Shown: positions 1 to 14,210 of the stretch, one piece after another
How positions within the stretch are numbered: position 1 is the first letter of the stretch
Layout of the letters: every line of letters begins with the position of its first letter
Assembly (NCBI GenBank): GCA_022768375.1
Contig: JALEMG010000057.1
Location: 1 to 33,723 of the forward strand
Source of the DNA: Lentisphaeria bacterium
Lineage (GTDB): Bacteria > Verrucomicrobiota > Lentisphaeria > Victivallales > Victivallaceae
DNA: 33,723 bases
Direction: 5' to 3'
Notes under the pieces: generated by a model
What the model saw: the letters and a program-made list of their open reading frames with translations, nothing else
What the model was told of the DNA's origin: nothing
Database searches by the model: none
Made by a program: the position numbers and the translations under genes

Positions 1-2403
1 GCCGGTGAAGACCGTGCGCACACTGCCGGAATTGTTTCTCGTGCCGAAGAATGCTGCCGTCACGGTGCCGCCGGTGATCAGATTGCTGGTGCCGCCGACA
101 AAGTTGGTTTCGGTCTGACCGTCGCTCATCGTGTTGGACACCTCGGCGAGAACCATCTTCTCGCCCGCGGTGTAGAGTGTCAGACCGGCGGCGCCGGTCA
201 CGGTGTAACCGCCGATGGCGCTCACGCCGGTAGCCACGACGATCTCACTGCCCGCGTAGGCCGAACCGTCCACCGTGATCGCCACGTCGGAGAGGTCCTG
301 CGCGGTGGTGAAGTCCGCCCGCGCTCCCGCATCGATGACGAGGTTGTCCACTTCGCTCAAGCCGCCGATGACGCTGGTCCCTCCGGTCAGGGTCAAGGTC
401 AGCGCGGAGGTGACGACCGTTTCGCCCGCTTTCTGCTTGCGGACCGCGCCGCCGACGGTGGCCCCGGCCAGCGTCATGGAGATCGTGCCGGTGACCGTGT
501 TTTTACGGGAACCGACAAAGTCGCCGCCGACCGTGGAATCGGTCAAACTCATTGCGACGTCGCCGCCGACCCAGATGTCGCCGCCGCCGCCCGCGCCGAA
601 GACGTCGCCGCCGATCGCCGAATCGGTGATGGTATAGACGAGGCCGGAGCAGTATTGTTCGTTCGCCCCCCACTGTCCGCTGTAAATCGTGCCGGTGACT
701 TCGGAATTGTCCAACGTGAAGTAGATCGTCCCGCCGACGACGCCGGATTCGGCAGTGGTATGGCGCAGCAGATAAAGCGCGTCATAACTCTTTCCCGGAT
801 TGGTCAGCGTCATATCCCGCATCGTAACCTTGAGGTCGCCGCCGACTTCGGAACCGAGGACATACCACCGCCCGTCCGTGCTGGTAAGTTCGGTGTTGTC
901 CAACTCCAGCGAGCAGTCGCCGCCCACGGAACCTCCGTGGATCATGGTAAAACCATTCATCGAACTGTCCACGAGCCGGAGCGAAAGCGAGGATTGGCCC
1001 TCAACCGTGAGAATGTCATAGTCTCCGTCCCTGTTGGTCTCGCTCTCCACCATGATGGTTGCCGTCTCGCCGGGTGTGACCGTCGTTGCCGTCTGGCCGA
1101 CCACGATCAGCGTACCGCCGGCGGTAAGGCAGGTCTTCGCTTCGGCGATGCTGTCGAAAACATCCTCCCGTCCGGCGAACGTGATGGTCTGACCGTCCAG
1201 CACGATCTCCGTCGCACCGTTGAGGACCGCGTACACGGTGTCGTAGGCGCGCCGCTGGACGCCCAGCGCATCGTCCGCGACGGCGAGGCGGTACTGGTGA
1301 TCGCCCACGTCGAACCACTCGTTCAGCGCCCGGGCTTCGCCGTCGACGGTGACCGAAAGATCGTCCGCCGCGGGCACCGCCATGCCGGAGATCAGCGTGT
1401 AGGCGTCCGTCCCGGAGAAAAGCGCACTTGCGACCGAGAGGGTGAAGTTATTCAGCGCTGCCGTGCCGCCGGAAACCGTCAGCGTTTCCGTCAGCGTGAA
1501 ATCCCCGGCCAGCGTCAGCGCGGCGTCGTTGGACACGGTGATCGTGCCGCCGATGCCGGAAACGCCGCCGCCGATCAGCGCGGTATTCGTGCCGACCGCG
1601 ATATCTCCGGACGGAGTGTAGTCGAACAGCAGGATATTTTCCACCCCGGCCGTCTGCGCCGCCTCCAGCGTGGCATAGGCGGTGAAGGGATTGTTGTTCA
1701 CGGCGACCAGGCTGTGCGCGGCGGTGACCATCGCATCGGCGCTGGTGACGTACATGTCGTTGTTGTTGGAATCCGCCAGCACGAAAATCTTATACCCTTC
1801 GCTGGCGCTGATGACGCCGTTGGCATTGTTGATAAACCAATAGCTGAAACCGGCGCTGGCGTCCACCGCCTTGGCCACGCCGTGACCGGTGAAAAACGAA
1901 CTGCCGACCACCTGGAACTGGTTGCGTGAATCATTCGCGTTGCCGTCAAAACGGAAACTCTGTCCGCTTCCCAGCGTTACCAGCCCTTCGACGTAGACCG
2001 CCGCAGCACTGCTGGTGCCGTAGATGTAAAACGAGGCGGTTCCGGAGTTGTTCAGCACCGTAACATCGGCAAGGTGGATCGTACCGCCGCTGTTGAGCCG
2101 GATCACGCCGCCATGAGTGCCGGCAACATTATTCCGGAAGGTGGTCCCGGAGATGTAATATTTCCCCGAATTGAGCGCTCCGCTGGCACCGCTGCTGCGG
2201 TTCCCGTCGAATACGCAATTCTCGATGTAGACCACGCCTCCGGTGCTGATGGCGCCGCCGGCGGAGGTGTTGCCGGAGAATGTGCTTCCGCTCACCTTCA
2301 ACGTTCCGCCGCCAACGGCGATGGCGCCGCCGCCGCCGCCGGTGGCGGTGTTGCCGGAGAAAATGGAATCGCTGATTTCAAGGGAACCGGTTGCCAAATA
2401 GAT
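1..2403 (-). CDS. Giant beta-helix surface protein, continuation after the frameshift (runs off the left edge)
   Basis: Seen: an uninterrupted minus-strand frame of about 800 codons from 2403 to the window edge, with no start codon needed because it continues the gene above. It begins IYLATGSLEISDSIFSGNT, restoring the F-x-GN-x-GGAI repeat rhythm. It then has a second copy of the spacer module (LVTLGSGQSFRFDG at 1948-1989; GYKIFVLADS and MYVTSADAM at 1735-1803). Towards the edge it changes to Gly/Thr/Ser-rich strand repeats such as SLTDSTVGGDF and MTLAGATVGGAV. The C-terminus, including any beta-barrel or sorting domain, lies outside the window, so autotransporter versus other export cannot be decided. 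Total visible length with the N-terminal part is about 1270 residues. Confidence 0.68.
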   Translation of the reverse strand, partial: MYLATGSLEISDSIFSGNTATGGGGGAIAVGGGTLKVSGSTFSGNTSAGGAISTGGVVYIENCVFDGNRSSGASGALNSGKYYISGTTFRNNVAGTHGGVIRLNSGGTIHLADVTVLNNSGTASFYIYGTSSAAAVYVEGLVTLGSGQSFRFDGNANDSRNQFQVVGSSFFTGHGVAKAVDASAGFSYWFINNANGVISASEGYKIFVLADSNNNDMYVTSADAMVTAAHSLVAVNNNPFTAYATLEAAQTAGVENILLFDYTPSGDIAVGTNTALIGGGVSGIGGTITVSNDAALTLAGDFTLTETLTVSGGTAALNNFTLSVASALFSGTDAYTLISGMAVPAADDLSVTVDGEARALNEWFDVGDHQYRLAVADDALGVQRRAYDTVYAVLNGATEIVLDGQTITFAGREDVFDSIAEAKTCLTAGGTLIVVGQTATTVTPGETATIMVESETNRDGDYDILTVEGQSSLSLRLVDSSMNGFTMIHGGSVGGDCSLELDNTELTSTDGRWYVLGSEVGGDLKVTMRDMTLTNPGKSYDALYLLRHTTAESGVVGGTIYFTLDNSEVTGTIYSGQWGANEQYCSGLVYTITDSAIGGDVFGAGGGGDIWVGGDVAMSLTDSTVGGDFVGSRKNTVTGTISMTLAGATVGGAVRKQKAGETVVTSALTLTLTGGTSVIGGLSEVDNLVIDAGARADFTTAQDLSDVAITVDGSAYAGSEIVVATGVSAIGGYTVTGAAGLTLYTAGEKMVLAEVSNTMSDGQTETNFVGGTSNLITGGTVTAAFFGTRNNSGSVRTVFTG

Positions 2404-3815
2404 GCGCCGCCGGAGCCGAGATTGTTGCGGAATGTCGACCCGCTGACCATGCCGCCCCGGGAATGCAGCGCTCCGCCGGTGCTCGCGGAACGGTTGCCGG
2501 TGAAAAGGGAGTTGCTGATGGTGACCCCCTGCACGGCATTGTCATGCATGACGGCGCCGCCGTTTTCCGAGGAGGTGTTGCCGGTAAACGTGCTGCCGGA
2601 GACAGTCAAAATTCCGTCATCCCTGTAGATGGCGCCGCCGAGACCGTTACAGGTGTTGCCGGAGAATACGCAATCCACCACCGCCAGCGTCCCGCCCTCC
2701 AGCACGACCGCGCCGCCGCGCGTACTGGAGTTGTCGATGAACTTCAGGCCCTCGATCCGGTAATTTACATCCGCATATTTGTAGAAGAACAGCGCGCCGC
2801 CCTGTCCGGAAGAATGACTGTCGCGGATACCGGAATCCCCGCTTCCGACGATGGTCCGATCCGCGCCGCTGTAGTTCACAGCCGCCCGACCGGTGTAATA
2901 GAAATCCACCAGCGCGGTATTCTTCCGTCCCAAACCGAAACTCTCGCTTTGCGGACCGTAGTAAAGGGTATCGCCGACCGCGGCGACCGCGGCGGTGCCG
3001 CCGACGGAAACGATGGTGGTATTGGCGACGATGTGATCGGCGTCGGCATCCGTGACGTACAGATCGCCCGCGTATGCCGTGACAAGTTCGTATCCGTCAT
3101 CCGTGATCCACTGGGCGGAACCGCGGTCTTCCCTCCACGATGAACTGACTCCGTCGACCACCAGTGCGCATTGAACGCCTTCCGCACTCGGCGAGATGAA
3201 ACTGTCGGCCTTGATGTAGATGGTGCCCTCGCTTCGGATGGTTTGGCTCGCACCGAGGGTAAGTTTGTCGACGATCGTTATGGTCCCGCCGTTGTAGATG
3301 GCGGCGCCCTGATTGCCGATGTTGCCGACGAATGTCGCGCCGCCGATGGTCATTCTCCACTCATTGCGGATCGCGCCGCCGGCGTTGCCGACGCTGTTGC
3401 CGGAGAAATACACGTCGGTGACGGTCATCGTTCCGCGGTGATTGTATATTGCGCCGCCGTTGCCGGCCCGGTTGTTCAGAAAACTGCCGCCGGAGATGTT
3501 CAGGCTTCCGCTGGACAGGTAAATGCCGCCGGTCGTGTTACCGACAAACGCCATATCGCTGACGACGTTAGTACCGCTGGCGTTGATGACGCTCCCTTCC
3601 GCGATCATGGCTCCGTTGACACCGATCACGGTGACGCCGTTGATCGCAACGCCGGTACAGGTCACACCGTCGATCAGGATGCTTTTGGCTCCGGCGCCGA
3701 CGGCCTCGCTCAGCGACTGGCAACCTTGTTCGGCCTCGTAGGTGATGTCTCCCACGGTGACGGAAGTTTCCGTTCCTGAGACGGATACGATGGCGTTGAC
3801 CTGGATTACAGACAT
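2298..3815 (-). CDS. Giant beta-helix surface protein, N-terminal part (before a frameshift)
   Basis: Seen: the frame opens at ATG 3815 with an AAGGAG Shine-Dalgarno at 3825-3830. It reads about 471 repeat-type residues, then turns into Pro/Ala-rich nonsense and stops at 2298. The sensible part holds many copies of a short repeat of the form F-x-GN-x(5-9)-GGAIY (about residues 89-174 and 380-470), typical of parallel beta-helix or polymorphic-outer-membrane-protein surface proteins. A spacer module (residues 183-262) contains LTLGASQTIR and DLYVTDADAD. No signal peptide is visible; the start MSVIQVNAIVSV goes straight into beta-strand sequence. The same coding continues one frame over from 2403 to position 1, so this and the next entry are one gene. 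Inferred role: extracellular adhesin or surface-layer protein. The substrate and export route are unknown. Confidence 0.7.
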   Translation of the reverse strand: MSVIQVNAIVSVSGTETSVTVGDITYEAEQGCQSLSEAVGAGAKSILIDGVTCTGVAINGVTVIGVNGAMIAEGSVINASGTNVVSDMAFVGNTTGGIYLSSGSLNISGGSFLNNRAGNGGAIYNHRGTMTVTDVYFSGNSVGNAGGAIRNEWRMTIGGATFVGNIGNQGAAIYNGGTITIVDKLTLGASQTIRSEGTIYIKADSFISPSAEGVQCALVVDGVSSSWREDRGSAQWITDDGYELVTAYAGDLYVTDADADHIVANTTIVSVGGTAAVAAVGDTLYYGPQSESFGLGRKNTALVDFYYTGRAAVNYSGADRTIVGSGDSGIRDSHSSGQGGALFFYKYADVNYRIEGLKFIDNSSTRGGAVVLEGGTLAVVDCVFSGNTCNGLGGAIYRDDGILTVSGSTFTGNTSSENGGAVMHDNAVQGVTISNSLFTGNRSASTGGALHSRGGMVSGSTFRNNLGSGGASIWQPVPLKSAIPFSPATPPPAAAAAPSPLAAER

Positions 3816-3871
3816 GACAAAACACTCCTTAAATTCGTTTTAAGGCAGTTGTCGTCGTCTGTATGGACCCT

Positions 3872-3900
3872 AACATAGCACCGGTCCGAAATATTGTCAA
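3872..3900 (-). promoter_or_regulatory. Promoter of the giant surface-protein gene
   Basis: On the minus strand, TTGACA (3895-3900) and TATGTT (3872-3877) are separated by exactly 17 bp. A TGC precedes the -10 box. The predicted start is about 50 nt upstream of ATG 3815. The flank upstream of the -35 is A/T-rich (3901-3930). Together with the pilin promoter this accounts for the 332-bp gene-free stretch 3816-4147, in which I see no other gene. Confidence 0.7.
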
Positions 3901-4071
3901 TATCAAAAAAACGCAATTCATCAAGATTTTTCACCGAATGAGAGTTTTTGTCCGATCGGAAGCGCGCCGGCAGAGGAAAACCGTCGATCCGGGCACGTCG
4001 GGAGAAGCCCCCCGGAGGAAGATCACTTTTCCTTTTCTTTTTCTTTTTCGGTACTTTTTTGACGCGGAGCC

Positions 4072-4100
4072 TTGAAAAAATCCTTTCCGCAGTCTATAGT
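4072..4100 (+). promoter_or_regulatory. Promoter of the pseudopilin-heptosyltransferase operon
   Basis: TTGAAA (4072-4077), a 17-bp spacer and TATAGT (4095-4100) lie about 48 bp upstream of ATG 4148. A pyrimidine-rich tract (4026-4050) sits just upstream of the -35 box. No internal promoter or terminator was noticed through 11986, so this probably drives all six genes. Confidence 0.6.
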
Positions 4101-4147
4101 AACGCCGGGAGTGGAAATTGCGGGGAATTTCACAGAGAATCAAGGAA

Positions 4148-4789
4148 ATGAAACGAAACAACTTCACCCTGATCGAAATGATCGCAGTGGTGGCGATCGC
4201 AAGCATCCTGATCGCGGTGTTCGTGCCGTCGTTCAACCGGATGATGTTCGGCAGCAAGGTGGATCAGGCCGCGTCCAATTTCAAACTCGGTCTGGAAATG
4301 GCGCAGGCGCGCGCGATCGCGGCGCGTAAATATGTGGCCATGGTGATTCCCACGGTCTACGGCGACGCCTCCACTTCACTGAAAGCGTACTGCGACGGCG
4401 GCTACCGGCTGGCCTTTGCGAAAAAGAGCGGCGGCAACTATCATTTCTCCGGCTGGGTGCCGGACAGTTCGTGGCGCAACCCCCGGGACGGCGCGGCGCT
4501 GACGCAGGTTTCCGGGCTAAGCGACCTGCAAGGAAGCGCTTCCTCGTTCACCGGGAATGACGCCGATCAGGAAGACTGGGACCGGCTGGGCGGGAGCACG
4601 AACCGCAAAGCGGTGATCTTCAGCCCCTACGGGGGCGTGGCGGGCAGCAGTCCCTCGTTCACCTTTACCGAAGCAAAATTTACCGGCGACACCAAATCGG
4701 ATGGGACCGCGGTGTACGATATGCCCAACGCGGACAACCGAATTTCCCTGAGCGTCAATCATATCACCGGCCGGGTGACTTATCAGTGA
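4148..4789 (+). CDS. Prepilin-type protein, GspH-like (Verru_Chthon cassette D-like)
   Basis: 213 residues. The N-terminus MKRNN/FTLIEMIAVVAI is a type IV prepilin leader: a short basic peptide, cleavage expected before Phe, Glu at mature position 5, then one hydrophobic helix ending near residue 30. The body (pilin-like globular part with FKLGLEMAQARAIAARKYV) matches the GspH/FimT pattern of minor pseudopilins. I chose ATG 4148 because it gives the short leader. A TTG at 4118 with a better-spaced GGAG would give a 15-residue leader and cannot be excluded. It is first of a six-gene operon. Inferred role: minor pseudopilin of a type II secretion or pilus-like machine. No ATPase, platform or secretin gene is nearby, so the core machine must be elsewhere. 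Confidence 0.82.
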   Translation: MKRNNFTLIEMIAVVAIASILIAVFVPSFNRMMFGSKVDQAASNFKLGLEMAQARAIAARKYVAMVIPTVYGDASTSLKAYCDGGYRLAFAKKSGGNYHFSGWVPDSSWRNPRDGAALTQVSGLSDLQGSASSFTGNDADQEDWDRLGGSTNRKAVIFSPYGGVAGSSPSFTFTEAKFTGDTKSDGTAVYDMPNADNRISLSVNHITGRVTYQ

Positions 4790-4798
4790 GGCAAACGG

Positions 4799-5494
4799 AT
4801 GAAGCGGCGGTATTTCAACATGGTGGAAGTGATGCTGGCGGTGGTGGTCATCTCCGTGGGGCTGGCCAGCGTCTTTGTGCTGTTCCCCACCGGACTGACG
4901 GCCCACCGGAGCGCGGCGGCGGACAACAGCATCGCGGACCTGGCGGAGTATATCTTCTCCAGCGTCAAGGCCCAAATCGACATCGACTGCAGCGGAGAGG
5001 ATGACGAAGACAACAAGAAATTTGAAAAGGGCGAGTGGACCAAATATTCCAACACCCCGTCCGATGCCAGCGTGGAATTGGACGACAACGGCAGCGGCTG
5101 GAATCTGGTGAGCATCCTCAAAAAAGGCGTGACCTCCGAGGACGCGGTGAAAAATGTTTCGCTGCTCCAGAACACCGCGAAGAAAAACGTCTTCTGGGTC
5201 CGGCAGGTCTCCGGCCCGTCCGGCAACCGGTACAGCGATTTCTCCGCCATCGGCCGGGTCTATGTGGACCGCGAGAGCGGCAAGACCGGACTGGAGGACG
5301 AATTTTTCTTCTCCACCGACGGGACGATGAAACAGTACAGCGCCATCAGTTATCCCAACAAGGACGCGAAAAAATTCATCCTGCCGCTGGTGCTGGAGAT
5401 CAGTTATCCGGCGGAGGCGGACTACGATCTGCGGGAGAAAAAATACTTCCGGTTTGAGGTCTTCAACTCCAATTACGAACCCCGGGTGATCTGA
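4799..5494 (+). CDS. Prepilin-type protein, GspI-like (Verru_Chthon cassette B-like)
   Basis: 231 residues. The start MKRRY/FNMVEVMLAVVVISVG has the prepilin layout with Glu at position 5 after the likely cleavage before Phe, followed by LASVFVLFPTGL. The GxASxFxLxPxGL pattern is typical of GspI/PilV-type minor pseudopilins. A GAGG at 4788-4791 precedes ATG 4799 by 7 nt. The rest is a hydrophilic domain with an acidic stretch (residues 63-72) that I do not recognise. The gene lies 9 nt after the first pseudopilin and overlaps the next gene by one base, so translation is probably coupled. Cassette membership is inferred from order, sizes and N-termini. Confidence 0.8.
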   Translation: MKRRYFNMVEVMLAVVVISVGLASVFVLFPTGLTAHRSAAADNSIADLAEYIFSSVKAQIDIDCSGEDDEDNKKFEKGEWTKYSNTPSDASVELDDNGSGWNLVSILKKGVTSEDAVKNVSLLQNTAKKNVFWVRQVSGPSGNRYSDFSAIGRVYVDRESGKTGLEDEFFFSTDGTMKQYSAISYPNKDAKKFILPLVLEISYPAEADYDLREKKYFRFEVFNSNYEPRVI

Positions 5495-6384
5495 TGAAGC
5501 GGTATCGTCATAATTTTACGCTGGTGGAACTGCTGGCCGCCATGGCGGTATTCTGCGTGCTGCTGCTGGTCTCCATGCGGCTCTTTTCCGGTTCCCAGCG
5601 GCTGTGGGTGCGGGCGGAACAGAAGACCAACACCTTCGCCGATGCCCGGACCGCGATGGAATTCATTGCCACGCGGCTGCAGACGCTGGTGTATTTCGAG
5701 GATATGCCGTTCGGCATGAGCGGGGACGAGATCTGGTTCCTCTCCAATTACCCCGACGGGGAACGGAACTCCGCCGGGAAGACGGTGCAGGATTTCTGGT
5801 ACTTCACCAAGTTCGAGCGCAATCCGTACACGGGGTGCCTGACGATGAAAACTTTCAACAACGAGGCGTTCGCCGGGAAAAAGAATTTTCAGCGCCTCCT
5901 GCCGCCGTACCTGAGTGCCAACGCCGCCAAAACCGCGTGGAACAACGTGCTGGCCAAGTGGCGCACGCCGCAGAGTTCCGGCAGTCCAGCGAATCATGAG
6001 GATATCATCGAAAACGTGACCTCGTTCAAAATCTTCGGGTTCTTCGCGAAGCGCGACGGCAACGAGTGGAAGGCGGTCCCGGGAAATTCAAGTCTCACGG
6101 ATGCGGCGTACTGCCGTTCCTCGGTCTCGACGTATGATTTTCCCGCGGAGAATGCCACTTTGGGCACCGGGGCCTCCGCGGACGACGAGAACACCTCCGC
6201 GAGCAAAAAGTTTTTCACCACCCCGCCGTATTTGGTGGAGGTGGAGATTTCCCTGCTGGACAGCAAGGAGCGTTACGACGAATGGAAAGCGGCCGACGCG
6301 GAGGGAAAAAAGGATTTGGAGAGCGAGTACGGTTACACCTTCCGGCGGGCGATCCTGCTGGGGCAGAGGAGTGTGGATGAATGA
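5494..6384 (+). CDS. Prepilin-type protein, GspJ-like (Verru_Chthon cassette C-like)
   Basis: 296 residues. MKRYRHN/FTLVELLAAMAVFCVLLLVS is a clear prepilin leader with Glu at position 5 and a single N-terminal helix, followed by RLFSGSQRLW. This is the GspJ/PilW arrangement, whose members are longer than GspH and GspI. The C-terminal region contains PPYLVEVEISLLDSKERYDEW and ends TFRRAILLG, consistent with the GspJ beta-sheet domain. The start overlaps the preceding stop (TGATG) and the end overlaps the next start by 4 nt. Such tight packing of H-I-J-K-like genes is the usual order of minor pseudopilins that form the tip complex of a pseudopilus. Confidence 0.82.
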   Translation: MKRYRHNFTLVELLAAMAVFCVLLLVSMRLFSGSQRLWVRAEQKTNTFADARTAMEFIATRLQTLVYFEDMPFGMSGDEIWFLSNYPDGERNSAGKTVQDFWYFTKFERNPYTGCLTMKTFNNEAFAGKKNFQRLLPPYLSANAAKTAWNNVLAKWRTPQSSGSPANHEDIIENVTSFKIFGFFAKRDGNEWKAVPGNSSLTDAAYCRSSVSTYDFPAENATLGTGASADDENTSASKKFFTTPPYLVEVEISLLDSKERYDEWKAADAEGKKDLESEYGYTFRRAILLGQRSVDE

Positions 6385-9300
6385 AAAACAGAATGGTTGA
6401 CCCCCGGGAAAGCGGGATGGCGCTGGTTTTCGCCATCGGCCTGCTGGCGCTGATGCTGGCCGTGGGACTGGCGTTCGTCGGCAATGCGCTGATTTTCCGC
6501 AAAGTGGCGCTGAACAACAGTTCCCGGACCCAGTCGCGGATGCTGGCGCTCTCCGCGGCGAACCGGGCGGCGGCCTCGGTCATGATGTACCAGCAGCAGT
6601 TCGCGGAGAACGCCGCCGCGGAGGATTTCCCCGCCAATTTCGACATGATCTACAGTTTCGGCAAGTACGATTCGGATACCGGAGACAATACCGCCGCGGC
6701 GTCCGGCAAAACTTTTTCGGACGCGCTGCTGGATCAAAGCAGTTCGGAATCCGTCATGCGTCTTCCCGAGGATAATTCGGTGATCGCCAAAAGTTTCGCC
6801 GAGTGGTACAATACCCCGTTCAAGGACAAAAACTGGCCCGGCAAGTGGGTGTTTTTTTACGATAAGAGCGGTTCCGGCCGCAAGATCGTCGGCCGGGCGG
6901 CGTGGCAGGTGGTGACGTCCAGCGCCCAAATCCTCGCACCGGTGTTTTTCCGAGGGCATCTCGCGGACGGAAACGTGCTGGAACCGGATACCGCGTTTAT
7001 CCCCAACAATGCCCGCTGGGGCAGGGACATCGACGAAGTTTTCTTCCGCGACAGCGGCACGATCTTTGCGAATGTCCGGGACAACGTGGAGAAGGGTGAC
7101 AAGATCGTCACGGTCGATAATATCGTCCAAGCCGTCTCCTCCTCGGTCACGCCCTCTCAGAAGCAGTGGCTGATGAAGTGGCTTTTTGCCGACCCTGACG
7201 AAAACGCCACGGTGCAGGATCCGACGCTGGGACTTTTTCCGGAGACCTATCTGTACGAGAAAAGCAGTAAGAAAAAGTACCAGTTGATGCGCTTCAACAT
7301 TTCGGAGTTGACCTATGAGGTGGACGGGAAAAAGTGGTATGCCAATTACGGGGTGAGCGCCTCCGCCGATCCGTGGTACGCCCGGTTCGGGATTGATTCG
7401 TCGAACGCCGACAAGATCAACAACGCCGAAGCGATCCGCATACTGACGCTGGACAGCACGGGATACGCCAACGGATACGATTACGACTTCGAGATCACGC
7501 CCGCGTCCGACCGGTCCGGTCTGCCGTTTCTGCGGCGGATCGGGGACTCGTCGGAGAATGCGACCACATTTGTCGCCGGGGTCAGCGAGGCCGCCGACGG
7601 CGCGGCGACCATCACCCGGGATATTGCGGCGTGGCGGCGGCAGATCGCGGCCAATTTCAATGATTACTGCGACGCCGACAGTATTCCGACATCCGATGTC
7701 GGCGCGGACAAGTGGAGCAATGATATCACCGCTTCTTATGAGCATCCCAAGTACACCGGCAATGAGAAGACCCCGTATCTTTACGAACTGGGCTTCAAGG
7801 CGGGGCTGGACAAGGACACCAGTCAAAACGTCGGAGTCGCCGGCACGATCACCAAAGGAAGCGGAAACGACGTGACCATGAAGTTTGCCGCTCAACTGCG
7901 GATCGCTCCGATGCTGAAACTGGCGAATCTCTATGACTTCAAAGGAGACGGTTTTTCCGCCTATGACGGATCGGCATTCATGCGCGCTCTGGTGGATTTC
8001 GGCAGCGTCTATCTCTGGTACAAACTGCAGACTGTGGCCGTCAAGAATATCGTATTCGAGTACACGGACGATAACGGTGACCTCCAGACCCTCAACGTGG
8101 ATGTGGTGCTTACTGTCAATCGTCCCACGACCGGGGAGAGCGAGGCCAATGTCGCGGGGTTGAAAAATCTGGTCTTGCGTACCGGATGCGAGGCCGGAAA
8201 ACTGCAAGATTCCTCCGCCGGCGTATCCGGGGTGGCGTTCCCCGACTCCGGTCTCAAAAATGAAACGGGAGGCAATCCGTATCCGGTCAACACCGACGGC
8301 GCCTGGCAGGATACCGGAGGCAATGCGGAAACGGCGTTGTACCAAGTCTCCGATTTGGAGAATAAGATCGCCGCAGGGGAGATTTCCATGACTTTGGACC
8401 GGGCGTTGCTGACGACCCCCGGCGTCAAGGTTCACAATCACGGAACCACAGCCGCGGCGACCATCCCGGAGCAGGAACTTACCTTGAAAAGCGTCGGCGA
8501 TCTGGAGGTTCACCGGGTGCTGGTGACCGGTCTGTCGTTTCAGCCGCGCCGGATGGTGCTGATGGCCGCCAACTCCACATCCGGCAAGTTCGGTGTGGAT
8601 TATGTCCGGCCGTTTTTCAAACCGCTGGTTTGGAATGCCGCTTCGGAGAACGATTTCATTGAGTTGACCTATGAATCCCGGGGAAGCGGGACCGAATACA
8701 ACGGTGTGGTGACGGGCGGTTTGCGCAACTTCGATCCGCGCCAGAACCTCAACGCCGAGGATTGGTACGGGTTCGACCCGGACGTGTCCTCCAACTGGTA
8801 TCCCGGGAGACAGACGGGGAAGGGAGGATTGCTCAAGGTCGTCGGCGCGGTTTCTTTCACTGCCCCCGCTGATTCGGAGTTGACGGCGGTAATGGACGTC
8901 AAGGAAAATACCGGGGACGCCAACTTCATTCCCGGCAGCGGCAATTCCGCCGCGAACAAGGATGATGAGGGAGATCTCACCGGTCCGGCGTACGACGGAG
9001 CCCACCGTATTTCCACCGCGTTCATCCGCAATGCGCCGATGATGAGCCCGTGGGAGATCGGCGCCGTCCATCGCGGGGTGCGCTGGCAGACCATCAATCT
9101 CAAGGTCGCCGGCAATATCGGCGGCACGGGCGGAGATTTCAGATCGACCGCGTTTGAACCCAACGGCGACGGCAATTCGGACAACGACTGGAAACGCGAC
9201 GGCACCGCTTACCGATACGGCGACGGCGCGATTTTGGACCAGATCAAAATGACCGACCGGCTCGCTTCCTACGGCAAGATCAACGTCAATCTTCTCAATA

Positions 9301-9971
9301 CCGCCCACAGCGAATATGACGCGGCCAACGACAAATTCATCGCCTACGCGTTGTTCGACAATCTCCGCTGCGGGCAAACGCTGGGGGATTTCATCACCGA
9401 GTCCACCCGGGACGGCAGTACCAAGAAATTTCCGGGTGGAAGCACCGAGACGTCGGCCGTTTTCAACGACACGGCGGTGGGAGCGATGGTCGCCAGTTCC
9501 GGCCGTCCCTCCGGCGGGTTCCTCAGCCGGGCGGGATACCTCAACTTCGACGACGGCGGGCTGGGGGATGCCTTCGGCGCCGTCACGGTGGCGAATACGG
9601 ACGCCGCGCAGGAGGAGATCATCGGCAAGACCATCAATCTGCTCACCGCCGGGACGACTTCTCCCGCCGTGGTGCAGGTGGTCGTGGTGGCCCAGAGCAT
9701 CCGGGATTTGGGCGGAACGCAGGTCAAGGTGACTTCCGAGACGGACAAAGACAAATTCACCGATCCCAACGGCGGCACGGTTCCCGAGATCGAGGACGGG
9801 ACGGTGGCGCTGGATTGTCGGGAAGGGCGGTTCGACATGCTGGAGCATGCCGACGACAGCGAAAAGAACGTTTATTTCGACGAAATCACCGGCGAAGTCA
9901 AGATGCTGGTGACCATGGATCGGGACCCGCTGACCGGGAAACTCAAAATCCGGCAGATCGACTATTTGTAA
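6381..9971 (+). CDS. Large GspK-like protein (Verru_Chthon cassette A-like)
   Basis: 1196 residues. The N-terminus has a short polar leader ending SGMALVFAIGLLALMLAVGL, a single hydrophobic helix without the Glu5 of other pilins, then FRKVALNNSSRTQSRMLALS. This is the GspK/PilX style start. The remainder is an enormous exported domain, three to four times the usual GspK length. Near the C-terminus, SPWEIGAVHRGVRWQTINL (about residues 892-910), a GDGAILDQIKMTD segment and GKINVNLLNTA resemble the conserved end of cassette protein A as I recall it. GkINlN is also a GspK signature. It overlaps the GspJ-like gene by 4 nt. Function is unknown; a tip or cell-surface partner of the pseudopilus is an inference. 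Confidence 0.72.
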   Translation: MKNRMVDPRESGMALVFAIGLLALMLAVGLAFVGNALIFRKVALNNSSRTQSRMLALSAANRAAASVMMYQQQFAENAAAEDFPANFDMIYSFGKYDSDTGDNTAAASGKTFSDALLDQSSSESVMRLPEDNSVIAKSFAEWYNTPFKDKNWPGKWVFFYDKSGSGRKIVGRAAWQVVTSSAQILAPVFFRGHLADGNVLEPDTAFIPNNARWGRDIDEVFFRDSGTIFANVRDNVEKGDKIVTVDNIVQAVSSSVTPSQKQWLMKWLFADPDENATVQDPTLGLFPETYLYEKSSKKKYQLMRFNISELTYEVDGKKWYANYGVSASADPWYARFGIDSSNADKINNAEAIRILTLDSTGYANGYDYDFEITPASDRSGLPFLRRIGDSSENATTFVAGVSEAADGAATITRDIAAWRRQIAANFNDYCDADSIPTSDVGADKWSNDITASYEHPKYTGNEKTPYLYELGFKAGLDKDTSQNVGVAGTITKGSGNDVTMKFAAQLRIAPMLKLANLYDFKGDGFSAYDGSAFMRALVDFGSVYLWYKLQTVAVKNIVFEYTDDNGDLQTLNVDVVLTVNRPTTGESEANVAGLKNLVLRTGCEAGKLQDSSAGVSGVAFPDSGLKNETGGNPYPVNTDGAWQDTGGNAETALYQVSDLENKIAAGEISMTLDRALLTTPGVKVHNHGTTAAATIPEQELTLKSVGDLEVHRVLVTGLSFQPRRMVLMAANSTSGKFGVDYVRPFFKPLVWNAASENDFIELTYESRGSGTEYNGVVTGGLRNFDPRQNLNAEDWYGFDPDVSSNWYPGRQTGKGGLLKVVGAVSFTAPADSELTAVMDVKENTGDANFIPGSGNSAANKDDEGDLTGPAYDGAHRISTAFIRNAPMMSPWEIGAVHRGVRWQTINLKVAGNIGGTGGDFRSTAFEPNGDGNSDNDWKRDGTAYRYGDGAILDQIKMTDRLASYGKINVNLLNTAHSEYDAANDKFIAYALFDNLRCGQTLGDFITESTRDGSTKKFPGGSTETSAVFNDTAVGAMVASSGRPSGGFLSRAGYLNFDDGGLGDAFGAVTVANTDAAQEEIIGKTINLLTAGTTSPAVVQVVVVAQSIRDLGGTQVKVTSETDKDKFTDPNGGTVPEIEDGTVALDCREGRFDMLEHADDSEKNVYFDEITGEVKMLVTMDRDPLTGKLKIRQIDYL

Positions 9972-10005
9972 GTGTGAACTTTTTTCAGCATACAGAGGAC
10001 ATAAT

Positions 10006-11361
10006 ATGGGATATTCTTTCAAGGCGCAGCCGCTTTCGCTGAACGGGGTCAATACCCGGCCCCTCTCCGTTTCCATGTCGGTCACCCCCGGCGCGGACAA
10101 TACTCCGATGATCGGACCCGAGATCGGTCCCGACCCCCGCAACGCCCAGTGTACCATCAAACTGGGCGACACCCCCGGCATGGAGGGTCCGAACGGGATC
10201 AAGTACGATTTTATTTTCGGATTCCGCTTCCTGCTCCCGGCGGGGCGCAAGTACCATGTTCTCGTCATGGATATGGACACCGATCTGCCGCTTTACGAGA
10301 GCGACGTGGACGGCGGCGGCATGGTGGTGGGCGACCGCAAATACTTTCTGCGCTACCATGTGACCATCACCGACGCGGTTACGAAGGAACTGCTGTTCGA
10401 GCACAAATTCGACGTGAAGGGCAAAAAAGTCTACGTGGTGGTTCCGGACGGCGGGTTGGGCGAGAATTTCGCGTGGATGCCCTACGCCGAGGAGTTTCGC
10501 CGGGTCCATCACGCCGACGTCACCTGCGTCATCGGGGAATGGTTCATCCGGCTGTGCGGCGACCTTTACCCGAAATTGAAGTTCATTCCGGTCAGCGAAC
10601 GTCCCCCCCTCAACGACGGCTATGCCGCCTACTACTGCGCCGCGTTTCCCAAGGACCGGAGCAGTTGGCGCCCGGTGGCCCACCAGCACTTCGGGATGCA
10701 GAAATCCATTTCCCAGATGATGGGACTGCCCCCGGAATATCTGAAAGTGCGGCTGCATCTGGACGCGCCCCGGCCGTTTCCGGAGCCTTTCGTCTGTATT
10801 TCCAGCATGGCGACGAATCCGTCCAAATACTGGAATTTCCCCGACGGCTGGAACAGCGCCATCCGCTTCCTGAAATCCATCGGCTACCGGGTCATGGACA
10901 TCGACCGGGAGCATGATCTCAATTTTGCGGGCAAGCACTACTCCATCCCCTCCGAAGCGGAGGATTTCACCGGGCGCAAGCCGATTTCCGAGCGTATCGC
11001 GCTGCTGCAGCACGCGGACTTTTTCATCGGTCTGCCCAGCGGGCTATCATGGGTGGCGTGGGATTGCAACATCCCGGTGGTGTTGCTGGCCGGATTCTCC
11101 ATGGACGGCGCGGAGTTTCCGACGCCCTACCGGATCACGAACTTCAACTTCTGCCACGGCTGCTGGAGCGACCCGACGCTGTTTTTCGACGTCAACGCTC
11201 CGGTCTGGTGTCCCCGTCACGGCGGTACGCCGCGGGAGATCGAATGCACCCGGGCCATCACCCCGCTGATGGTGGAAAAAGTCCTGCGGACCATCCCCGC
11301 GGTCCAGCGGCGGTTGGCGCTGACGCCGCCGGAAAAGGTGGTTTCGGTCATCCATGACTGA
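10006..11361 (+). CDS. Autotransporter O-heptosyltransferase (TibC/BAHT family)
   Basis: 451 residues, cytosolic (no signal peptide). Known family members transfer heptose from ADP-heptose to Ser/Thr of strand-loop-strand surface repeats. Seen: a beta-rich N-terminal part to about residue 140; VVVPDGGLGENFAWMPYAEE (145-163) at the start of the GT-B fold; GLPSGLSWVAW (342-352) in the nucleotide-sugar domain; and four cysteines C383, C386, C402 and C414 in CHGCW, CPRHGGTPR and ECTRAI, which match the four-Cys metal (iron) site of TibC-type enzymes. It starts 34 nt after the cassette-A gene and overlaps thiN by 8 nt. The target is not shown by the sequence; candidates are the giant surface protein facing it or the exported pseudopilins. 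Confidence 0.82.
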   Translation: MGYSFKAQPLSLNGVNTRPLSVSMSVTPGADNTPMIGPEIGPDPRNAQCTIKLGDTPGMEGPNGIKYDFIFGFRFLLPAGRKYHVLVMDMDTDLPLYESDVDGGGMVVGDRKYFLRYHVTITDAVTKELLFEHKFDVKGKKVYVVVPDGGLGENFAWMPYAEEFRRVHHADVTCVIGEWFIRLCGDLYPKLKFIPVSERPPLNDGYAAYYCAAFPKDRSSWRPVAHQHFGMQKSISQMMGLPPEYLKVRLHLDAPRPFPEPFVCISSMATNPSKYWNFPDGWNSAIRFLKSIGYRVMDIDREHDLNFAGKHYSIPSEAEDFTGRKPISERIALLQHADFFIGLPSGLSWVAWDCNIPVVLLAGFSMDGAEFPTPYRITNFNFCHGCWSDPTLFFDVNAPVWCPRHGGTPREIECTRAITPLMVEKVLRTIPAVQRRLALTPPEKVVSVIHD

Positions 11362-11986
11362 CCGGACAGTCATTCTGGCCAATGGCGAATTTCCCCGCCG
11401 CTCGGATCTGCTGACGCTCCTGAGGCGCGCCGAATCGGTGGTGTGCTGCGACGGCGCGGCCCGGAAACTGCTGGATTTCGGGCGGGAACCGGACTGGATC
11501 GTCGGGGATATGGACAGTCTTGGGCCGGAGTTGAAGGCGCGCTTTTCGGAGCGGACGGTGCGGTTCGCCGAACAGGAGACCAATGATCTGGCCAAAGCCT
11601 TCCGCTTCTGCCGGAGCAGGGGGATAAAGCCCGTCGCGGTGTTGGGCGCTTCCGGCGGGCGGGAAGATCATCTGCTGGGCAATCTCTCCCGGTTCGCTGA
11701 GTGCGCCGAACCGGATTGCCGACTGTATACGGAGAGCGGATTTTTCGTCGTATTCACCGGGCAGGGGCGGTTCCACGGTCCGGTGGGGCGGGCGGTGTCG
11801 ATTTTCAGTTTCGATCCGGCGCAGAAGATCACCTCCGACGGGTTGAAGTATCCGCTTCGGGAACTGAGCCTCTCCCGGTGGCATGCCGGGACGCTGAACG
11901 AGATCGCCGCGCCGGAGTTTTCCCTGACCGCGTCGACCGATACGCCGGTTTTGCTGTTTTTTTCCGAAACGGCCCCTTGTTTTTGA
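11354..11986 (+). CDS. thiN: Thiamine pyrophosphokinase
   Basis: 210 residues. It makes thiamine diphosphate from thiamine and ATP in the cytosol. Seen: [15 protein letters not shown] and [14 protein letters not shown] (N-terminal nucleotide-binding half, around residues 32-58), then [10 protein letters not shown] (around 75) and [17 protein letters not shown] (around 98-114). These are the three signature blocks of the family. The C-terminal beta-barrel (about 120-205) has the usual [20 protein letters not shown], where the thiamine-binding part lies. Length is normal. It overlaps the heptosyltransferase stop by 8 nt, so this housekeeping gene is carried at the tail of the surface operon. 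The rpsU promoter lies inside its last codons. Confidence 0.93.
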
Positions 11987-12222: not shown

Positions 12223-12240
12223 GCGACCGTGCGATCCGGG

Positions 12241-12269
12241 AAGCACCCATTGCGGGTGCTTCTTTTTTT
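12241..12269 (+). terminator. Rho-independent terminator of rpsU
   Basis: Perfect 8-bp stem AAGCACCC (12241-12248) / GGGTGCTT (12254-12261) with a 5-nt loop, followed by CTTTTTTT. Confidence 0.92.
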
Positions 12270-12386: not shown

Positions 12387-14210
12387 ATGTGTGGGATCGT
12401 TGGGTACACCGGGGACGCGGATGCGACCCGGATTCTGGTGGACGGATTGCTGCGTCTGGAGTATCGGGGGTATGATTCAGCGGGAATTTGCGTGGCCGGC
12501 GCGGACGGAGGCCTCCAGACGGTCAAATCCGCCGGCAAAGTGGCGCGGCTGCTGCCGCTGACGACGGAGGTTCACGGTCGATGCGGGATCGCCCATACCC
12601 GCTGGGCGACTCACGGCGCGCCAAGTGAGGTCAACGCGCATCCGCATCTGGATGGAGCGGGAAATATCGCGGTGGTTCACAACGGGATCATTGAAAACTA
12701 CCGCGAACTGAAGGCATCTCTGCTTCGGGATGGCGTGGAGTTCCGTTCCGAGACCGACAGCGAAGTCATCGCTCATCTGATCGCCCGGTATTATGAAGGC
12801 GATCTGGTGCGGGCCGTGGTGCGGACGATCGGCCGACTGCGGGGCGCGTACGGGATCGCGGTGATTTCCCGGCATCACCCCGGCGAGATCGTGTGTGCCC
12901 GCAACGGCAGCCCGGTGGTCGTGGGGCTGGGCAAACGGGGCAACATGGTGGCCAGCGATGTCACCGCGCTGGCCGCGTATGCCGGGGAAGTGATCTATCT
13001 GCGGGACGGGGAGATCGCGGACATCACGCCGGATAAAGTGGAGGTCCGCAATTCGGTGAATATTCCGGTGGTGCCGGATGTGACGGAGATTCCGGCGGAG
13101 ACGGTGAATTCCGGTAAGGGCGAGTATGCGCATTATATGCTCAAGGAGATTTTTGAACAACCCGACGCCGCGGCGAACACGCTGCGCGGACGGCTGGACC
13201 GCGAACTCGGCACCGCGCTGCTCTCCGGTTTGAATATGACCCCGGCGGCCATGGCGCAGGTCCGGCAGGTGGTTATCGCCGGATGCGGCAGCAGCATGCA
13301 TGCCGGGATGGTGGGCGAATACTATTTCGAGGACATCGCCGGGATCCCGACTTCGGTGGAGCAGGCGGCGGAGTTCCGTTATCGCAATCCGATCATTGCT
13401 CCGAATACGCTGGTTATTCCCATCAGTCAGTCGGGCGAGACCGCGGACACGCTGGCCGCGGTGCGCGAAGCGGTCAACAAAGGTGCGACGGTGGCGGCGA
13501 TCTCCAATGTGGTCGGTTCCACCATCGCCCGGGAGTGCGGACGGGGGGTGTATCTGCACGCCGGGCCGGAGATCAGCGTGGCCTCCACCAAAGCGTTCAT
13601 CTGTCAGGTGATTACGCTGCTGATGCTGGCGCTGGCCTTCGGGCGCAACCGCCGGATGAACCGGGAACAGGGGGCGGAACTGGTCCGGGAACTGGAATCG
13701 GTGCCGGAACTGATCCGCGCGGTGCTGGATCAGGCCGAAGTCATTCGGCGCATCGCGGAGAAATTCGCCGCGGGGGAACACGCGTTCTACATCGGGCGGG
13801 GGCCGCTCTATCCGGCCGCGCTGGAGGGTGCGCTGAAACTCAAGGAGATCAGTTACGTTCACGCCGAGGGATATCACGCCGCGGAATTGAAGCACGGCCC
13901 GATCGCGCTGCTCGGCGAAAACGTTCCGGTGGTGGCGCTGGCCAACGATATTCCCGGCAGGGAAAAGATGTTCAGCAACATCGAGGAATGTCTGGCCCGG
14001 CACGCCCCGGTCATCGCGGTGGTGACCGGAGACGACCGGACCGCGGAACGCTATACGGAGGATATCATCCGGGTCCCGCCGTGTTCGCGTTTCATCGCTC
14101 CGGTGGTTACGGTGGCGGCGCTGCAGTTATTCGCCTACTATCTGGCTTCGGCCCGGAATTGTCCCATCGACCAGCCTCGCAATCTGGCCAAGAGCGTTAC
14201 GGTGGAATGA
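12387..14210 (+). CDS. glmS: Glutamine-fructose-6-phosphate aminotransferase (isomerizing)
   Basis: 607 residues, close to the 609 of E. coli. It makes glucosamine-6-phosphate from fructose-6-phosphate and glutamine, the first step to UDP-GlcNAc for peptidoglycan and LPS. Seen: MCGIVGYTGD with Cys2, the N-terminal nucleophile of the glutaminase domain; LEYRGYDSAGI; HTRWATHG; HNGIIENY; then two SIS sugar-isomerase domains with GCGSSMHAG, ISQSGETADT and the C-terminal PRNLAKSVTVE. I chose ATG 12387 rather than upstream starts because Cys2 must follow Met, and AGGAGA at 12374-12379 is well placed. The stop lies 4 bp from the stop of the convergent mscS gene with no terminator visible between them. 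Confidence 0.97.
   Translation: MCGIVGYTGDADATRILVDGLLRLEYRGYDSAGICVAGADGGLQTVKSAGKVARLLPLTTEVHGRCGIAHTRWATHGAPSEVNAHPHLDGAGNIAVVHNGIIENYRELKASLLRDGVEFRSETDSEVIAHLIARYYEGDLVRAVVRTIGRLRGAYGIAVISRHHPGEIVCARNGSPVVVGLGKRGNMVASDVTALAAYAGEVIYLRDGEIADITPDKVEVRNSVNIPVVPDVTEIPAETVNSGKGEYAHYMLKEIFEQPDAAANTLRGRLDRELGTALLSGLNMTPAAMAQVRQVVIAGCGSSMHAGMVGEYYFEDIAGIPTSVEQAAEFRYRNPIIAPNTLVIPISQSGETADTLAAVREAVNKGATVAAISNVVGSTIARECGRGVYLHAGPEISVASTKAFICQVITLLMLALAFGRNRRMNREQGAELVRELESVPELIRAVLDQAEVIRRIAEKFAAGEHAFYIGRGPLYPAALEGALKLKEISYVHAEGYHAAELKHGPIALLGENVPVVALANDIPGREKMFSNIEECLARHAPVIAVVTGDDRTAERYTEDIIRVPPCSRFIAPVVTVAALQLFAYYLASARNCPIDQPRNLAKSVTVE

Follow-up and report, generated by a model that had tools for sequence, protein, structure and literature searches.

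A TibC-like O-heptosyltransferase gene behind an old pseudopilin cassette in a Lentisphaeria bacterium, and its possible acceptors

Introduction

What would an O-heptosyltransferase do directly behind a set of pseudopilin genes? The question is raised by a contig of a Lentisphaeria bacterium (GenBank assembly GCA_022768375.1, contig JALEMG010000057.1, here also C53), which was analysed over its entire length of 33,723 nt and is called the window below; the genome comprises 2.25 Mb in 64 contigs. On its plus strand, three prepilin-like genes (D, B and C), a giant gene, a gene for a TibC-type O-heptosyltransferase (HepT) and a gene for thiamine diphosphokinase (TPK) follow one another, and a gene for a large surface protein points away from them on the minus strand. 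In the portions of the literature that were searched, O-heptosylation by such enzymes is described mainly for autotransporters; no paper found there brings heptosyltransferases together with Lentisphaerota or heptosylation together with RTX. The first-pass annotation took cassette, transferase and surface protein for one system, in which the cassette would export or display a heptosylated protein or the pseudopilins would themselves be modified.

Comparison with related genomes led to another answer. HepT is tentatively regarded as a cytoplasmic O-heptosyltransferase that rides an old minor-pseudopilin operon and modifies exported surface proteins of the beta-helix type in trans, a reading whose probability we put a little below even.

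Results and Discussion

The genes D (4148-4789; the listed open reading frame starts at TTG 4118), B (4799-5494), C (5494-6384) and the giant gene (6381-9971) are spaced or overlap by a few bases. HepT (10006-11361, 451 aa) starts 34 nt past the end of the giant gene, and the housekeeping gene TPK (11354-11986; TIGR01378, E 5e-37) overlaps the 3' end of HepT by 8 nt. The six genes probably form one operon and would be co-transcribed. The composition first described for it, three prepilin-like genes, a GspK-like protein of 1196 aa and a TibC-type transferase, was found at these reading frames; TPK has to be added.

HepT matched the full TIGR04414 profile (387 bits, cut-off 200; model positions 3-374 of 374), the TibC N-terminal domain PF21129 (49.4 bits, cut-off 27) and PF01075, and the best solved structures for it were those of TibC (PDB 4rap and 4rb4, E ~1e-94). 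In the structure-match alignment, T226, K230, R286, P300 and W305 of TibC corresponded to T270, K274, R330, P344 and W349 of HepT. According to the part of the TibC study that was available, Arg286, Trp305, Thr226 and Lys230 bind the sugar and Pro300 (Ser294 in AAH) determines stereoselectivity (PMC4358343). HepT thus shares with the TibC/AAH enzymes of the BAHT group the full-length profile match, the Arg, Trp, Thr and Lys, the proline of D,D-heptose selectivity and the four cysteines; an iron-bound dodecamer is a further feature of the group. It differs from them in having Glu153 at the position of the catalytic Asp110, and because this defining residue is replaced, HepT is treated as a BAHT variant rather than as a strict member. 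Further differences are its separate clade, its location in a pseudopilin operon, the absence of an adjoining autotransporter or protein with strand-loop-strand (SLS) repeats, and the occurrence of its relatives either beside a glycosyltransferase partner or in genomes where no SLS repeats were detected. A third TIGR04414 match in the same genome, on contig C26 (64158-64787), is partial (profile positions 167-374) and lies in mid-contig; it is perhaps a pseudogene.

The neighbourhood was compared in 78 genomes of the family and 197 of the class. The profile of the giant protein (E<=1e-5) matched in 72 of the 78 family genomes, including 35 of the 36 best-quality ones, and in all 19 genera. The order D-B-C-giant-HepT-TPK was repeated only in two genomes, G048 and G041 (together with the window, the trio), whose HepT is 90% identical to that of the window. 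Twenty other cassette regions were fetched. A giant-like protein was confirmed by tblastn in all of them, and HepT was found in none, either among the gene calls or by tblastn at E 0.01; eight read D-B-C-giant-TPK, with 2-7 nt between the last two genes. These presence tests were rerun by tblastn, as simple codon-usage gene calls had overlooked the giant gene of L136 as well as several glycosyltransferase genes elsewhere. Conversely, 27 genes in 26 of the 197 class genomes encode proteins more than 50% identical to HepT, that of the window included (X genes). No cassette was found in the regions around the other 24, all of which were read, several on contigs of ~6 kb or less; the sole hit, at the end of L077, was to a prepilin N-terminus of generic type. 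Because the cassette stands without HepT, the two are considered unrelated things, and since TPK directly follows the giant gene in relatives, the slot behind the cassette accepts unrelated genes. The surface gene adjoins a cassette in one of the 23 loci read, namely in the window, and no counterpart of it was found in G048, G041 or the 20 other regions; it is therefore taken for a chance or recent neighbour.

The search of relatives for co-occurrence, which the first-pass annotation had proposed, thus recovered the unusual pairing of transferase and cassette in two of them and the cassette alone in the 20 others. The notion of a single three-part system did not survive this comparison, since cassette, transferase and surface protein each occur independently.

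The acceptors were sought among surface proteins. The surface gene of the window lies on the minus strand in two long open frames, 3815-2298 (505 codons) and 2397-1 (799 codons, without a stop up to the contig end), which overlap by 100 nt at 2298-2397; either the gene is frameshifted or the assembly is in error. The giant divergent protein described earlier is indeed divergent and a right-handed beta-helix protein of the PMP type (PF02415, E 3e-16; PF13229; TIGR01376), but it is not one intact reading frame and it runs off the contig. Like the Pmp-type proteins of Chlamydia, it carries Pmp repeats, as do two others looked at; unlike in that system, no autotransporter barrel was found in this genome, and one of its Pmp-type proteins carries RTX repeats. 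No SLS repeat was found in the part of the protein on the contig, and the contig as a whole gave no SLS match at E<=1. SLS repeats do occur in a fragment at one end of contig C24 that is 47% identical to the last 100 residues of the window protein; the compared parts of eight other contigs shared no end sequence of at least 17 bases with C53, and the two are not claimed to be one gene.

Proteins resembling the N-terminal half of the window surface protein occurred in 7 of the 10 family genomes with an X gene versus 6 of the 68 others (p 6e-5); for the genus alone the figures were 7 of 8 versus 4 of 26 (p 4e-4). According to the preferred reading, HepT would most likely transfer heptose from ADP-heptose to Ser/Thr of such right-handed beta-helix, PMP-like proteins and not to pseudopilins. 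Several of these acceptors would be encoded per genome, at sites scattered over it, and they would lack a Sec-like signal and probably leave the cell by type I export. As to the donor, a gene like that for heptose-phosphate adenylyltransferase (TIGR02199) was found in all 16 genomes searched, including enzyme-free ones, with every match under the cut-off (best, 162.3 of 181.5 bits) and only a weak one in G040. Synthesis of ADP-heptose is plausible on these matches.

Regarding export, the autotransporter barrel PF03797 was found in none of 15 genomes tested, SLS-rich ones included (the window's own genome at E<=0.001), and the E. coli and Caulobacter controls were positive. RTX repeats were present in two of seven surface proteins scanned, an SLS protein (C6) and a PMP protein (C36) of the same genome as the window. 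The highest 11-residue mean hydropathy in the first 40 residues was at most 1.38 in six of eight surface proteins, 1.73 in that of the window, which has no clear Sec-like N-terminal signal, and 2.15 in C36, compared with 2.29 and 3.11 in the secreted controls. A C-terminal motif, SExxFExKxKGxLA, is common to C6, C26 and L088. The RTX repeats, the lack of a Sec-like N-terminus and the shared motif are therefore read as pointing to type I export. C-termini of the SExxFExKxKGxLA type were seen in large surface proteins of L066, L071 and L088 and are candidate type I export signals.

Several points weigh against this assignment of acceptors. In the class as a whole, the PMP-type proteins accompanied X in 9 of 26 genomes, compared with 17 of the 171 genomes lacking X (p 0.002), and just 1 of the 16 X genomes beyond the family had such a protein; the link is therefore largely one at genus level, which shared ancestry may explain. 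No acceptor site was identified. Five of the seven surface proteins scanned had no RTX repeat, and the N-terminus of C36 is fairly hydrophobic. The Glu at the catalytic-base site may mean that the activity is altered or lost. The operon position is kept in three well-separated species, which could reflect a functional tie to the pseudopilins. Finally, HepT may have entered either in the ancestor of the trio or earlier, with later loss from the eight TPK-linked cassettes.

The relatives of HepT offer the next explanations. Transferase matches at E<=0.001 were found in 46 of the 78 family genomes, or in 44 after the weak matches of G074 (E 5e-4) and G077 (E 1e-4) had been dropped, which was done before SLS repeats were counted. 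A tree of 50 enzymes, which does not contain every non-X gene of the class search, consisted of an X clade (27) and a Y clade (22), with support of 100/99 and 99/99, and one Selenomonadales enzyme. For the SLS count, Y comprised every non-X match, fragments included, whereas the tree includes only 22 of the Y enzymes. SLS repeats were detected in all 40 family genomes with a non-X enzyme (34 with Y only, 6 with X and Y) versus 9 of 34 genomes free of such enzymes (Fisher p 1.5e-12). Because SLS repeats occur in every Y-bearing genome, Y is regarded as the SLS enzyme. Of the four X-only genomes, one, 71% complete, had SLS repeats; in the other three (G029, G058 and G059, 94-97% complete) no SLS or AIDA repeat was found by two models. 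The AIDA stalk model PF16168 gave the same picture as the SLS model in the 15 genomes searched. In those three genomes X must therefore have another acceptor, or the SLS repeats are too divergent for both models.

Outside the family, a homologous family-2 glycosyltransferase (GT2) was found directly downstream of X or fused to it in 14 of 16 loci; the GT2 Pfam domain was checked in four of these. GT2 is fused to X in L151 and L152, is part of a protein of 671-677 aa in L154 and L155 and is a separate gene in the other ten. L164 has no GT2 beside X, and the sequence of L166 breaks off within the transferase. Within the family, none of 11 regions (eight X loci, the window, G048 and G041) had a GT2 beside X. 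This arrangement suggests that those other lineages may make a glycan that includes heptose and comprises more than one sugar. A broader explanation can be built on this: the X clade across the class would have left the world of autotransporters and SLS proteins and, with a dedicated GT2 partner in other families, would build heptose-based glycans on other acceptors, one lineage having been captured by the pseudopilin operon, having exchanged Asp for Glu and now glycosylating pseudopilins or beta-helix proteins. It is given a minor chance of being right, though one large enough to be taken seriously.

Alternatively, X could be a second copy that acts on SLS-repeat proteins beside the Y enzyme. 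The trio, G030, G009 and G069 do possess X together with other TibC-like genes (in G041 a fragment only) and SLS repeats, and the donor-site residues of HepT are kept; the residue matching P300 is proline, which TibC, an enzyme of SLS proteins, also has there. However, the three X-only genomes without detected repeats, the separation of the X clade and the GT2 partner at 14 of 16 loci outside the family, which a plain SLS enzyme does not have, argue against it, and it is considered unlikely.

A number of further observations were made at the X loci. In L151 and L152, the X transferase and the GT2 domain share one protein of 1040-1055 aa. In L154 and L155, the X transferase overlaps the protein of 671-677 aa, which has weak HepT-like and clear GT2 domains. 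By eye, an 89-aa protein adjoining the transferase in L161 looks like PqqD, and a protein after it in L082 looks like a radical-SAM protein. A highly conserved protein of 80-81 aa (MADKKEIFADGIGQIHFAGNMVRF..) is encoded ~450-520 nt upstream of the transferase in L076-L078 and L080. The translation of L075 at 9534-11150 reads as the letter X, over runs of N. In the genome of the window, several SLS genes lie at contig ends; L083 (G000:C31) and L067 (G000:C32) both begin with nearly the same SLS-protein fragment, in one case right after a Y transferase (the classical pair).

All four cassette proteins resemble the minor pseudopilins H, I, J and K, and the cassette is best described as GspHIJK-like and Verru_Chthon-like. 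Above curated cut-offs, its proteins matched only two short motifs of the N-terminus, PF07963 in C and TIGR02532 in C and D. D, the GspH-like protein, has an N-terminus of the type NNFTLIEM with Asn instead of Gly at residue -1, and it matched TIGR02596 (E 1.4e-8, 35.1 of 70 bits) and TIGR01708 (E 1.9e-6) under their cut-offs; a profile of 17 homologues retrieved pilin N-termini from the PDB (E 3e-8). The GspI/PilV-like B matched TIGR02523 (E 1.3e-6) and TIGR02598 (E 8e-4, 19.6 of 51.4 bits), again under cut-off, and its profile retrieved no credible relative from the PDB. C, the GspJ-like protein, matched TIGR02599 (E 1.3e-10, 41.1 of 256.5 bits, under cut-off), as did all 14 of its homologues, and its profile retrieved pilin N-termini (E 0.0016). 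The giant protein has an N-terminus of the type RESG-MALVF and lacks Glu5. In the window it matched no profile at E<=0.1 (GspK only at E 2.4), and its profile, too, had no credible relative in the PDB. Among 19 homologues scanned at E<=1, GspK was matched weakly by 17 (best, 8.4e-5) and TIGR02600 (Verru_Chthon_A) weakly by 9 (best, 1.2e-5).

With the Verru_Chthon cassette A-D (TIGR02596-TIGR02600), the window shares four tandem genes with four prepilin-like N-terminal types, one of the genes being very long; Verru_Chthon models are the best NCBIfam matches of D and C, and nine of the 19 giant homologues match such a model. The differences are that the window proteins remain under the cut-offs of TIGR02596, TIGR02598 and TIGR02599, that the window giant does not match TIGR02600 (A), and that the order here is D-B-C-A. 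With GspH-I-J-K of the type II secretion system, it shares the order H-I-J-K and the N-terminal types, and the giant protein lacks Glu5. GspK itself also lacks Glu5. Here the differences are the nearly fourfold length of the giant protein relative to the GspK model (307) and scores that are weak and mostly N-terminal: the equivalog cut-offs were missed for H (28 of 80 bits), J (17.2 of 64.85) and K (7.6 of 130), and no GspI match was listed for B in the profile search of the window proteins. D-B-C-giant would be a minor-pseudopilin operon, old and spread through the whole family, that serves a machine of the type II secretion or type IV pilus-like kind; in the trio, HepT lies between the giant gene and TPK and is probably co-transcribed with both.

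The divergence of HepT was compared with that of its neighbours within the trio. Identity at fourfold-degenerate sites was 0.42-0.48 for HepT, 0.35-0.49 for TPK and 0.32-0.33 for the giant gene, and nonsynonymous divergence (dN) was 0.04-0.06, 0.22-0.32 and 0.51-0.60, respectively. Because its fourfold-degenerate sites are diverged and its dN is low, HepT must be old in this place and strongly conserved, under purifying selection. Recent horizontal transfer as a cause of the 90% identity was ruled out, since the synonymous sites are as diverged as those of the neighbours. The idea that high identity is peculiar to the operon-linked HepT was weakened, as the Y enzyme of the same genome likewise shares 85-88% identity with four others from the genus. 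Trees of the giant protein and of the concatenated proteins (in which the TPK row of G048 was filled with gaps) did not separate the trio from the eight TPK-linked cassettes; monophyly of the trio was not the best tree but was not rejected either (p-AU 0.325).

These data bear on the possibility that the X enzyme heptosylates the pseudopilins or the GspK-like giant and thereby tunes a surface-exposed pseudopilus. The same operon has persisted in three species with almost saturated synonymous sites, and Glu at the base position, found in the trio alone, tracks this position. In the accessible part of one source, the heptosyltransferases of E. coli are described as rather promiscuous, and O-glycosylation of the fimbrial subunit CfaB is reported for enterotoxigenic E. 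coli, with a sugar not identified there (PMC5000012). However, the cassette stands without HepT in all 20 other regions, TPK being in position in eight, no cassette was found in the regions read around the other 24 X genes, and the would-be substrates in G048 and G041 are just 42-64% identical to those of the window, compared with 90% for HepT. Nothing found here calls for modification of the pseudopilins, and we regard it as distinctly unlikely.

It should also be considered that the operon-linked HepT is catalytically dead or altered and serves as a scaffold or in another transfer. All three operon-linked enzymes have Glu at the Asp110 site, where the other 47 of 50 aligned enzymes have Asp. 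Asp110 is the candidate catalytic base of TibC; in the part of the study consulted, D110A is called catalytically inactive, and Ala at this position abolished or largely diminished heptosylation (PMC4358343). Yet Glu, too, is a carboxylate, the trio retains the four sugar-binding residues, Pro344 and the four cysteines unchanged, and dN is very low, so that this explanation has little probability. The exchange goes with operon position, and its possible effect on acceptor choice or on activity is the point of greatest interest here.

A role of the cassette in exporting or displaying the heptosylated surface protein, as first suggested by their divergent adjacency, is very improbable indeed, given that this adjacency exists in one of 23 loci and that the lack of a clear Sec-like N-terminus and the RTX repeats of two proteins of this genome point to type I export and not to the periplasm and a pseudopilus.

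As for signals flanking the operon, a consensus scan found divergent promoter-like pairs between the surface gene and D, TTGACA-17-TATGTT on the minus strand (3900-3872) and TTGAAA-17-TATAGT on the plus strand (4072-4100), each with 10 of 12 consensus matches. Promoter-like sites in the region, counted as consensus matches only, numbered 10 versus 3.5 expected. A terminator-like hairpin of 11 pairs with a T tail (plus strand, 12238-12264) lies between TPK and glmS, whose reading frame extends from 12297 with an ATG at 12387. Because terminator-like sites occurred at chance number in the region (12 versus 11.9 expected), this hairpin was judged by its own quality alone.

Conclusions

The locus illustrates how misleading a neighbour in an operon can be: nearly the whole family possesses the pseudopilin cassette. 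The X clade occurs where no autotransporter barrel was found, in three genomes also without detected SLS repeats, which makes other acceptors a testable matter. The trio, in addition, provides a naturally occurring replacement of Asp by Glu at the proposed catalytic base of this enzyme group.

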